This document shows positions 9,137 through 50,896 of a stretch of DNA of 58,113 nt, in pieces. The stretch covers positions 1 through 58,113 of the forward strand of contig NZ_AZRK01000006.1 of assembly GCF_002895485.1 (NCBI RefSeq), read 5' to 3'. The notes below the pieces were generated by a model. It saw only the letters and a list, made by a program, of their open reading frames with translations. It was not told the DNA's origin and made no database searches. A program made the translations under genes and the position numbers. Position 1 is the stretch's first letter. The number at the start of each line of letters is the position of its first letter. Origin of the DNA: Petrotoga sp. 9PWA.NaAc.5.4. GTDB taxonomy: Bacteria; Thermotogota; Thermotogae; Petrotogales; Petrotogaceae.

Positions 9137-11366
<2,230 letters not shown>

Positions 11367-44970: not shown

Positions 44971-45171
44971 ACTTTAGAAATGAAAATTTCCTAAAAATAG
45001 AATTTTGAATTTAAAATGGGTCTAGGGCGGAGCCCTCTCCCTCTTTCCGCGCTACAAATACCCAAAAAGTTAAAAAATTAAGAATTAGCAAGAATTAGAA
45101 GTGGGGAGGTGTTTTTGGAGAAACTAAAATTCAAAACATTTATAGAATCAGAGTTTCAGAATTTCTAAAGT
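44971..45171 (+). repeat. 200-bp intergenic repeat, complete copy upstream of rex
   Basis: A 201-bp element bounded by ACTTTAGAAAT at 44971-44981 and ATTTCTAAAGT at 45161-45171, perfect inverted repeats. Inside are TTTTGAATTTAAAATGGGTC, the hairpin core AGGGCGGAGCCCT, a weakened second hairpin, and the tail with TTCAAAACATTTATAGAATC. It starts 43 bp after the leuS stop and ends 20 nt before GAGGAGGTGA. The gap 44929-45262 otherwise holds only the rex leader described separately. Confidence 0.9.
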
Positions 45172-45190
45172 AAGTAAAGTACAAATATCA

Positions 45191-45252
45191 GAGGAGGTGA
45201 AAAAATTTTGTCACTTAATAAACTTTTAACGATACTTTGAGTGACAAAATTT
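45191..45252 (+). promoter_or_regulatory. rex leader: strong SD, 10-codon open frame and 13-bp inverted repeat
   Basis: GAGGAGGTGA (45191-45200) is an excellent SD but lies 62 nt before the rex ATG. Seven nt after it, TTG at 45208 opens a 10-codon frame (MSLNKLLTIL) that stops at 45240. The same region has a perfect inverted repeat, AAATTTTGTCACT (45203-45215) and AGTGACAAAATTT (45240-45252), with a 24-nt loop. The rex ATG itself has no SD. A leader peptide or hairpin controlling rex, or a 50-bp insertion between SD and ATG, would explain this. Confidence 0.6.
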
Positions 45253-45262
45253 AATACGAAAT

Positions 45263-45916
45263 ATGAAAAGTTCAAAAGTTCCCAAACCAACAATAAAAAG
45301 ACTTGCTTTGTACAATAGATTTCTTACAGAATTAAAAGAATCAGGTGTCAACAAAACTTCCTCTAAAGAAATTGCCGAAGTCCTTAATATCAAAGCGTCC
45401 CAGGTAAGAAAGGATCTCTCTTATTTTGGAGAATTTGGTAAAAGAGGGTTTGGTTACGTCGTAGATGATTTGCTTTTTAGAATACAAAAAATTCTTGGCA
45501 CTGAAAGGATTTGGAACATTGCTTTAATAGGAATAGGTAACTTAGGGAAAGCCATTTCACATTATCCCGAATTAGAAAAGAATAAATTTAAAATCGTATC
45601 TGCTTTTGATGTTGATAAAAGAAAGATAAATTCAATATTACTTCCTGGAATTACTATAAAACACATAAATGAAATACATCAAGAAAAACAGAAAAAAAAC
45701 TTTGAAATAGCCATATTGACGGTTCCAGCAACAGCTGCCCAGCAAGTCACAGATTTATTAGTAAAAGAACAAATAAAAGGTATTTTGAATTTTACCCCCA
45801 CAACACTTAATGTACCTGATAATATTATGGTTGAAAATGTAGATTTTGTAATTTCACTGAAAACTTTAACTTACGAAATAGTAACTCAGTCTGATATAAA
45901 TTTTGAATCTAAATAG
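45263..45916 (+). CDS. rex: Redox-sensing transcriptional repressor Rex
   Basis: A 217-residue Rex. The N-terminal winged helix has [33 protein letters not shown], almost identical to the family signature. The Rossmann domain has [10 protein letters not shown] for NAD(H) binding. Rex represses fermentation and redox genes until NADH rises. The start (MKSSKVPKP) aligns with known Rex N-termini, yet no SD precedes it (see leader entry). The next gene begins 32 bases after its stop codon. Confidence 0.95.
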
Positions 45917-48250: not shown

Positions 48251-48452
48251 ACTTTATAAATAAAGATTTTTTAAAAATAAGCTTTTGAATTTATAGTGGG
48301 TTCAGGGTGGAGTTCTCTTCCCCATCTCTGACTAAAAGTATCGAAGAAGTTAAAGAAAAATAGAGAATATCTCAAAATTAGAATTATGGAAACATTTTAT
48401 AAAAATTCGATGCTAAATATTGGTAAAATCTGAATTTTAGAATTTCTAAAGT
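48251..48452 (+). repeat. 200-bp intergenic repeat upstream of the short-chain dehydrogenase
   Basis: A 202-bp copy that starts 10 bp after the previous stop. The 5' end ACTTTATAAAT is slightly altered, and the 3' end ATTTCTAAAGT is intact. The first hairpin core has decayed to AGGGTGGAGTTCT and the second to GACTAAAAGTATCG. The tail ends 20 nt before AGGAGG of the next gene. This is an older, diverged member of the family. Confidence 0.8.
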
Positions 48453-48484
48453 GAGTAAAAATCATAATTATAGGAGGCATTAAA

Positions 48485-49228
48485 ATGGATAGAATGAAAG
48501 GAAAGGTTTGTGTGGTAACAGGTGGAGCCAGGGGAATTGGTAGAAGTATAGTTGAAAAGTTTTCTGATGAAGGTGCAGAAGTTGTTTTCGCTATAGATAT
48601 GAACAAAGAACTTCTCGATCAATTAGATAAAGAAACCAAAAAAAATATAAGAGGATATCAGTTAGATGTTACAAATAGAGCTGATATTCAAGAATTTGTT
48701 AACAATGTAAAAGAGGAATTTGGAAGGATAGATGTACTTGTAAACAATGCTGGAATCACAAGGGATGCTTTATTGCAAAAAATGTCAGAAGAAGATTGGA
48801 ATTTAGTAATTGATGTTAATTTAAAAGGTGTATTCAATATGACTCAATTCGTTTCTAATCTCATGTTGGAAAACGGAAAAGGTAGCATAGTAAACATTTC
48901 TTCTATTGTAGGTGAAAGAGGAAATATCGGACAAACTAATTACTCGGCATCAAAAGGTGGAGTCATATCAATGACTTATACTTGGGCAAAAGAATTAGCT
49001 AGAAAAGGTGCAAATATAAGAGTTAATGCCATAGCTCCAGGATTCATAAAAACACCTATGACTGAAAAAATGCCGGAAAAAGTCTTAGAAAATATTCTTT
49101 CCAAAATCACTTTGAAACGTATGGGAGAACCGGAAGAGGTTGCTAATGCTGCATTATTTTTGGCTTGCGATGAATCTTCTTATGTAACGGGACATGTTTT
49201 AGATGTAAATGGAGGCACAGTTTTATAA
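48485..49228 (+). CDS. Short-chain dehydrogenase, FabG / 3-hydroxyacyl-CoA dehydrogenase-like
   Basis: A 247-residue classical SDR. The cofactor motif is TGGARGIG; the acidic residue in FAIDMN leaves NAD+ or NADP+ open. NNAG is present. The catalytic Ser lies in NISSIVG and Tyr-Lys in YSASK. The end GHVLDVNGGTVL is typical of FabG and acetoacetyl-CoA reductases. In this cassette it most likely interconverts a 3-oxoacyl and 3-hydroxyacyl thioester or acid. The ATG follows AGGAGG. It is not next to acpP or other fatty-acid genes. Confidence 0.85.
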   Translation: MDRMKGKVCVVTGGARGIGRSIVEKFSDEGAEVVFAIDMNKELLDQLDKETKKNIRGYQLDVTNRADIQEFVNNVKEEFGRIDVLVNNAGITRDALLQKMSEEDWNLVIDVNLKGVFNMTQFVSNLMLENGKGSIVNISSIVGERGNIGQTNYSASKGGVISMTYTWAKELARKGANIRVNAIAPGFIKTPMTEKMPEKVLENILSKITLKRMGEPEEVANAALFLACDESSYVTGHVLDVNGGTVL

Positions 49229-49251: not shown

Positions 49252-50568
49252 ATGTGGAAAGATAAATATAGAGAAAAATTAAGATCTCTTGATGAAGCAA
49301 TCTTATCATTACCCAAAAGATGTACAGTTATTGTAAGCATGGCTGCAGCTGAAGCCCAAGGTTTTTTAAGCAATGTACATAAATTCAAGAGTCACTTCGA
49401 AAAAATAAAGATAGTTACTTGCTTAGACACAGGTTATTATGATTTCTTTTTGAATAAAGACTATGAAGACAATTATCAATTGCATACCTGGTTTTTCTCT
49501 GATTCAACTAGAAAGTCAAAATATAAAGACGAATTAAAAATCTTAGATTTTATCCCCAATAATTTACACATGGCTGGTTTAGATAAAGTTATGGCAGAAA
49601 AAGAAGAAGGAAATACAGTAGTTTTTTGGGGAACCTCCGCACCTTTTCAAGAAAAAGCAGGTTATTTTAATTTAGGAATATCAAATGTATATGAAAAAGA
49701 TATAGCGGAAAATGCCGATATAGTTGTTATGGAAGTTAACGAAAAAATGCCTTTTGTACATGGTGACACTGAATGGCATATAAACAATGTTAATATGATA
49801 GTCGAATCAAGTTGGGAAATTCCAGAAATTCCAATAACCGAACCAAAGGAAGAAGAAAGGAAAATTGCTCAACATATAGCTGATCTTATTCCTGATGGAG
49901 CTACTTTACAGATAGGAATTGGTGGAATACCCAATGCTGTTGGAAAACTCCTTGAAGATAAAAAAGATTTAGGAGTTCACACAGAGATGCTAACGGAGTC
50001 TATGATAGATCTTTTTGAAAAAGGTGTCATAACAAATATGAAAAAATCTTTATGGAAGGGAAAGTTTATTATTGCTTTCGCCTTAGGTACTAAAAAAATG
50101 TACGATTTTATAAACAATAATCAAGGAGTTTTTGAACTTAGAGGTAGATACGTCAACGATCCTTATGTAGTATGCCAAAACGACAATATGGTTAGTTTGA
50201 ATACCGCGATTTCTGTAGATCTCACAGGCCAAGTTGTCTCTGAAGCTATAGGAACTCAACAAATTTCCGGACCCGGCGGACAATTGGATACTCACAGAGG
50301 AGCTATAAAGAGCAAGCATGGAAAAGGCATAATTGCACTGAGATCTACGGCAAAAAATGGAACTATTTCTACTATTGTTCCTATGCTACCCCAAGGGACT
50401 CCTGTTACAGTCCCAAGACATGATTTAGATTATGTGGCAACAGAATGGGGAATTGTTCATTTAAGAGGCAGAAGTGCTGGAGAAAGGGCGCGAAAATTAA
50501 TCTCTATAGCTCATCCGGATTACCGAAAGGAATTGGAGAAAAAAGCTATAGAAATGGGATTAATATAA
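49252..50568 (+). CDS. Class I CoA-transferase, 4-hydroxybutyrate / butyrate CoA-transferase-like
   Basis: A 438-residue protein, the same size as known 4-hydroxybutyrate CoA-transferases. The CoA-binding loop is GIGGIPNAVG, the predicted catalytic glutamate is E245 in HTEML, and the second loop is GPGGQLD. C-terminal RSAGERARKLISIAHPDYRKEL is a family signature. It should exchange CoA between an acyl-CoA (often acetyl-CoA) and a short carboxylate, activating the acid without ATP. The SD is GGAGGAGG. It is placed between a dehydrogenase and a thiolase and upstream of an importer. Confidence 0.88.
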   Translation: MWKDKYREKLRSLDEAILSLPKRCTVIVSMAAAEAQGFLSNVHKFKSHFEKIKIVTCLDTGYYDFFLNKDYEDNYQLHTWFFSDSTRKSKYKDELKILDFIPNNLHMAGLDKVMAEKEEGNTVVFWGTSAPFQEKAGYFNLGISNVYEKDIAENADIVVMEVNEKMPFVHGDTEWHINNVNMIVESSWEIPEIPITEPKEEERKIAQHIADLIPDGATLQIGIGGIPNAVGKLLEDKKDLGVHTEMLTESMIDLFEKGVITNMKKSLWKGKFIIAFALGTKKMYDFINNNQGVFELRGRYVNDPYVVCQNDNMVSLNTAISVDLTGQVVSEAIGTQQISGPGGQLDTHRGAIKSKHGKGIIALRSTAKNGTISTIVPMLPQGTPVTVPRHDLDYVATEWGIVHLRGRSAGERARKLISIAHPDYRKELEKKAIEMGLI

Positions 50569-50573
50569 AAATT

Positions 50574-50642
50574 TTTGAGGTATTTTTGAAAAAATCAAAC
50601 GTCAAAATATTCATAAAATCTGAGTGTCGTAATTTCTAAAGT
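50574..50642 (+). repeat. Partial 200-bp repeat: isolated 3' tail after the CoA-transferase gene
   Basis: This 69-bp piece matches only the tail of the element: TTTTTGAAAAAATCAAACGT, CAAAATATTCATAAAATC and the 3' end ATTTCTAAAGT. The head is missing. It lies 21 bp before a complete copy. Together they fill the 328-bp gap 50569-50896, which holds no gene. Confidence 0.75.
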
Positions 50643-50663: not shown

Positions 50664-50863
50664 CTTTAGAAATGAGAACCTTTTAAAAATAAGCTTTTGA
50701 ATTTATATAGCGAGGTTAGAGGATAGATCCCTCACCACACTCTCGATACAAGTAGCGAAGAAACTAAAAAATAAAGAACAGGTCAAAATCAGAATTGTGG
50801 AGGCGTTTTATAAAGATTTAACGTCAAACCATTGATAAAATTTGAATTCTAAAATTTCTAAAG
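50664..50863 (+). repeat. 200-bp intergenic repeat upstream of the thiolase gene
   Basis: A 200-bp copy bounded by CTTTAGAAAT at 50664-50673 and ATTTCTAAAG at 50854-50863. The head AATAAGCTTTTGAATTTATA is well kept, but the first hairpin is degraded to GAGGATAGATCCCTC and the second to CGATACAAGTAGCG. The tail reads ACGTCAAACCATTGATAAAA. The SD of the thiolase starts 21 nt after the element. Confidence 0.85.
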
Positions 50864-50896
50864 GCAGTATATAAAATTCTTATTAGGAGGTAAGAA

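Follow-up and report, generated by a model that had tools for sequence, protein, structure and literature searches.

What is the 200-bp repeat at 44971-45171 of this DNA, and how did it come to lie where it does? The window (the whole stretch of 58,113 nucleotides from the heat-loving bacterium Petrotoga sp. 9PWA.NaAc.5.4 that was analysed) had been read in an earlier note, from its letters, as holding four complete copies of a MITE-like family and a fifth close to complete. All five are found essentially where that note placed them and with the ends it gave, as matches, far beyond chance, to an HMM built from the genome's copies.

Structure of the element and its copies in the window

The repeats of 200-202 bp described originally are real, but the element extends over ~209 bp once the outer bases are counted, as A-NNN-ACTTTAGAAAT…ATTTCTAAAGT-NNN-T; in the register of the 12-bp duplication discussed below its boundaries are A-NNN-ACTTTAG at the left and CTAAAGT-NNN-T at the right. 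In 31 aligned copies the terminal inverted repeats ACTTTAGAAAT/ATTTCTAAAGT are present and the internal order noticed previously is kept, running from the head through the AGGGC-GGA-GCCCT core and the palindrome TTCGGTACAAGTACCGAA to the tail, with 83% mean column identity. The element carries no transposase of its own, and a 17-codon in-frame stretch found in some tails is broken in other copies.

The best copy (44971-45171, plus strand) is followed by a spacer (45176-45187) and by AGGAGG at 45192-45197; the gene downstream encodes a Rex-type repressor (ORF 45263-45916). In the interval from this motif to the start of the Rex-type gene (45192-45263) there is also a reading frame of 10 codons (GTG...TAA), together with a perfect 11-bp inverted repeat, ATTTTGTCACT/AGTGACAAAAT; the repressor gene may have its operator or leader here. 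The copy at 48251-48452 (plus) sits between two co-directional genes, with its spacer at 48457-48468, AGGAGG at 48472-48477 and a FabG-like short-chain dehydrogenase gene at 48485. The copy at 50664-50864 (plus; HMM match to 50863) is followed by the spacer ATATAAAATTCT (50869-50880), which resembles the spacer on its left, by AGGAGG at 50885-50890 and by a thiolase gene from 50897; a tail-only unit, also matched by the HMM (50565-50642, plus, element positions 125-202), has the spacer AGTAAAATTCTT next to it. The minus-strand copy at about 11168-11366 is present with its far end decayed (HMM 11343-11168), and its 12-bp spacer (11152-11163) leads to AGGAGG at 11142-11147, which belongs to the NAD-dependent DNA ligase gene (9137-11131, minus). 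The region 211-797 is a single plus-strand array, in which three head-only units matched by the HMM (211-325, 331-457 and 465-592, ending at element position 128-130) precede a complete copy (598-797, HMM 598-794), with AGGAGG at 818-823 and the TTG start of a glycoside hydrolase family 2 gene at 833. Every copy in the window has the same orientation with respect to the gene that follows it, a regularity that the earlier note did not mention.

Abundance and distribution

The host genome (G000) comprises 2,224,578 bp (2.22 Mb) in 45 contigs, one of which (C1, 301.6 kb) was read end to end as an unbiased sample for counts. It holds 81 units in 52 arrays, or 4.4% of its length, which extrapolates to ~600 units in ~380 arrays for the genome. 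A BLAST search of the genome with the 44971 copy gave at least 74 matches (the best 40 of 432 candidates were scored), and there are 156 occurrences of AATTTCTAAAGT, compared with 7 of the reversed control pattern. Units are dispersed through the host genome, and good matches turn up in g1 (the genus of the host), g3 and g4, three genera of its family, so the repeat is not confined to the loci first named. No good match was found in the other families searched, nor any match in phage and plasmid records; short matches in genera g2, g6 and g7 (L070-L075) were discarded as chance AT-rich matches. Genus g3 also has a second MITE type (L067, L068, L080, L081, L088), which shares the head and an internal GGAGGTATTTT and differs in the middle; where its ends are readable (L081, L088), it obeys the placement rule described next. 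Shorter variants of ~80-95 bp, consisting of head and tail only (L037 5177-5290, L042 4579-4660, L043 3595-3680), still lie upstream of Shine-Dalgarno motifs.

Placement relative to the Shine-Dalgarno motif

On contig C1, 48 of the 52 arrays lie directly upstream of a gene with the element in the gene's orientation, the right end being ~33 nt from the start codon. Genes were called by a simple script, and in two of the four exceptions (123910, 157503) the motif is normally spaced and followed by a start codon that the gene caller missed. Of 70 readable right ends, 65 have the start of the Shine-Dalgarno motif 17-22 nt after ...AAAGT, including 46 with it at 18 or 19 nt; of the remaining five, one has it at 23 nt and four have none. 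A few copies with no motif (L052) or a poor one do exist. The standard deviation of the distance from the right end is 1.16 nt when measured to the motif and 2.15 nt when measured to the start codon; the spread from motif to start (1.80) explains the difference, so the motif is the anchor. The genes concerned are enriched in strong motifs, with AGGAGG or GGGAGG in 40/48 element-bearing genes compared to 56/225 other genes (p = 4e-14).

Over the whole host genome, 102 of the 156 exact right ends have [AG]GGAG after 15-20 nt, against 0 in the reversed control. With a looser pattern the counts are 107 vs 0 for the host, 25 vs 1 for G003, 16 vs 1 for G014, 13 vs 1 for G002, 10 vs 0 for G009, 6 vs 0 for G008 and 6 vs 2 for G012, and they stay at background level in the remaining genomes searched. 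Judged by these counts, the apparent strict insertion at Shine-Dalgarno motifs is replicated in G003, G009, G014, G002 and G008.

Could selection alone produce this pattern from random insertion, by removing harmful copies and sparing only those that directly precede a ribosome-binding site? Nearly all surviving copies are indeed intergenic and leave the ribosome-binding site intact. However, selection would tolerate any spot from the promoter or upstream gene down to the motif, in either orientation; it cannot fix the spacing at 18 or 19 nt, and copies at AGGAGG-like motifs inside other elements, described below, show the same spacing. We regard this explanation as very improbable.

Target duplications and empty sites

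Within a locus the left and right flanks are far more alike than flanks of different loci are (29 single copies, z = 10.9; 44 arrays, z = 15.7), and the identity peaks at a 12-bp register, or one base off in single copies. The target duplications that the earlier note suggested looking for are therefore present and measure 12 bp; a TA duplication was our initial reading and was dropped after this flank comparison. Clear examples are ACGATTTTTTAT (L057), ATATAATTTATT (L035) and AAAACTTAATTT (L037). Many duplications are eroded and many copies old; for the 44971 copy the flank comparison finds no recognisable duplication remaining.

Empty sites, also proposed as a check, exist in relatives. In the cleanest case G018 has GAGCTCAAAAATAATTAT, the element and AAAAATAATTAATGGAGGAGG, whereas G002 has GAGCTCAAAAATAAAATAATTAATGGAGGG at the same gene. 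At other genes the state varies between genera, the gene of L087 being filled in G008, G000 and G003 and empty in G009, and that of L079 filled in G009 and G000 and empty in G003, so that orthologous gaps do not all carry the same sequence.

The duplications are AT-rich, as they would be if the targets were simply stretches rich in AT that melt easily or are transcribed and, by chance, precede Shine-Dalgarno motifs. Such a preference would not, however, set the spacing to single nucleotides and the orientation to one strand relative to AGGAGG, nor place the motif at 102 right ends vs 0 in the control, and other intergenic AT-rich stretches are hardly used. We give this possibility hardly any weight.

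Arrays and nested insertions

Tandem full-length units have the same short spacer between them, as expected when one target is reused. Head-only units ending at 128-131 stop where an insertion at the internal GAGGAGG (134-140) would cut, and the head units in the window, which end at 128-130, are those expected from such nesting. At two loci (L041, L053) the leftover tail is still present and the spacer duplicated, consistent with insertion at a Shine-Dalgarno-like motif within a MITE, while at a third (L044) a MITE lies at AGGGAGG inside the relic of an insertion sequence (IS) end, the relic itself being at a gene's motif. Since elements are found at motifs inside other copies, the target seems to be recognised as DNA, rather than through translation or an active ribosome-binding site. 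Other head-only units of the host (L031, L034, L044, L059, L060) end at 110-114 and continue with TGTGG, TTGAA or TAGT; this second break point is not accounted for by the internal AGGAGG.

In six IS copies the internal GGAGG is 67-68 bp away from the right end; the distance is mostly 67 bp (64-68) in the host MITE and 67 bp in the g3 MITE. This position hints that it may be a site for the transposase.

A partner insertion sequence with the same ends

What, then, could mobilise the MITE? As the earlier note stated, there is no transposase gene in the window; the only PF01609 (DDE_Tnp_1) gene found in the host genome lies outside it (G000:C2:50663-51913), within a 1.6-kb IS. The ends of this IS (L186/L187, 1.6 kb apart) are those of the MITE, ACTTTAGAAAT at left and ATTTCTAAAGT at right, which supplies the transposase with matching ends that the note had suggested seeking. 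Its target also follows the rule, with a 12-bp spacer and 3 nt leading to the AGGAGG of the next gene. At nine distinct IS sites, including those with transposases of 43% (L195/L196) and 37% (L197) identity, the motif starts 18-21 nt from the end. In copies with a readable motif-side end, the transposase gene is directed away from the host gene.

The transposase contains DUF772 and DDE_Tnp_1 domains (37.5 and 34.3 bits, above the Pfam cut-offs), and its best NCBIfam match is IS1182 at 55.9 bits, below the cut-off of 270. A phylum-wide search found full-length stop-free frames in the host, in G008 (78% identical) and in G044 (37%, another family), with D141, D250 and E356 invariant in all three; copies elsewhere in the phylum are mostly decayed. 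The protein has no match on plasmids or viral contigs and no sequence relative in the PDB, and its single-sequence AlphaFold model (pLDDT 37) is unusable. The partner is best read as a DDE transposon, distantly IS1182/IS5-like, that would target AGGAGG, and shared ends, right-end layout and target rule together suggest that it mobilises the MITE. Two other descriptions do not fit: a REP/REPIN system with RAYT would pair short palindromes with an HUH (Y1) transposase, while the partner here is a DDE transposase with long inverted ends, and the insertion into, or replacement of, palindromes known from some IS1182 members does not describe targets of the form N12-NNN-AGGAGG with a 12-bp duplication.

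Two further features of the IS were observed. The ribosome-binding site of its transposase (L187 2751-2880 and other IS copies) forms one arm of an inverted repeat ACCTCCTTACGAT/ATCGTAAGGAGGT (fold z = -2.56), which should conceal it in read-through transcripts; some other insertion sequences also hide the transposase ribosome-binding site against read-through. The other arm resembles a Shine-Dalgarno motif, faces the host gene and has itself been used as an insertion target (L044). Separately, next to two IS copies (L191, L192) the downstream gene is identical to its relatives (L257, L258, L260, L261) from AGGAGG on, with unrelated DNA upstream; it looks as though a gene had been fused to its leader precisely at the motif.

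Transposon or regulatory leader?

A repeat common to hundreds of genes, in fixed orientation and at fixed distance, might also be mainly a regulatory 5' leader or mobile promoter that the host keeps, its spread being secondary. TATAAT-like stretches in the tails of many aligned copies would fit, and the tail may include a putative promoter, but no conserved -35 was seen. The earlier note had pointed to a foldable core and a second hairpin and proposed a covariance check; core and palindrome are conserved in sequence, while the RNA of the copy folded is no more stable than shuffles (z = 0.22) and the consensus structure has almost no covariation, with any double change in only 2/23 pairs. This argues against an RNA element as the primary nature of the repeat, and Rfam recognises only two tRNAs in the window and nothing in the repeat. 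Terminal inverted repeats, non-coding content, ~600 dispersed units, 12-bp duplications, an empty site and an IS with matching ends all bear out the MITE label given originally and mark a transposon, and the IS itself shows the same placement. A primarily regulatory role is accordingly very unlikely.

Proposed mechanism

We consider it highly probable, judging from sequence, that the repeats are non-autonomous MITEs of an IS whose DDE transposase picks its target by AGGAGG in DNA. The layout read from the sequence is the right end, 12 bp, usually 2-4 nt and AGGAGG, in one orientation, and is the same for the IS. We propose that AGGAGG is bound by the transposase, either unaided or together with a host factor, and that the enzyme makes a 12-bp staggered cut just upstream of it. 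The element would then come to lie ahead of the ribosome-binding site and behind the promoter or the preceding gene. As the ribosome-binding site would be preserved on insertion, the cost would be low and hundreds of copies could build up. Repeated use of one target would then give tandem arrays with the same spacer between units, and insertion at AGGAGG within existing copies would give head-only and tail-only units. A broader proposal, to which we give an even chance, is that a whole clade of DDE transposons uses the Shine-Dalgarno motif as a DNA address, that AGGAGG may be bound by the transposase at two places, the element's own end and the target, and that hundreds of genes have in this way gained a common 200-nt 5' leader.

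If true, the Shine-Dalgarno motif would be an ideal safe landing site, since it precedes a large share of genes; targeting it apparently lets the element spread without breaking them. This would explain how the element came to occupy ~4% of a compact genome and to stand in the leaders of hundreds of genes. A further prediction is a transposase that has a simple 6-bp target and inserts DNA immediately upstream of ribosome-binding sites. The same reading calls for caution, as 5' leaders in these bacteria may derive from transposons instead of being regulatory.

Comparison with known systems

Our search of the open-access literature, with most subscription papers outside it, found no report of MITEs or IS targeting Shine-Dalgarno motifs, nor of Petrotoga or Thermotoga MITEs. 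MITEs and IS of this kind are already known, while the target rule appears to be new. ERIC, Correia/NEMIS and the pneumococcal RUP and BOX repeats are likewise short and non-coding, with terminal inverted repeats, high intergenic copy number and a known or likely parental IS, and in BOX the number of modules varies as in the MITE arrays here. Known repeats of these types insert at TA or loosely defined sites in either orientation, unlike this MITE, with its 12-bp duplication and its single spacing and orientation to the Shine-Dalgarno motif. The transposase shares the DUF772 and DDE_Tnp_1 pair and the DDE residues with IS1182/IS5-type enzymes. IS1272, placed in the IS1182 family, replaces stem-loops and makes no duplication (PMC5678879), whereas the IS described here makes a 12-bp duplication adjoining AGGAGG. 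Putative mobile promoters likewise put similar DNA before unrelated genes in one orientation; the present element differs in its terminal repeats, target duplications and matching transposase, its promoter activity being only putative. Targeting of safe sites is familiar from Tn7 at attTn7 and from IS elements in REP sequences, where a specific motif limits harm to the host. A specific DNA motif would do the same here, but in contrast to those systems it is a short translation signal, standing before a large share of genes and offering hundreds of open sites.
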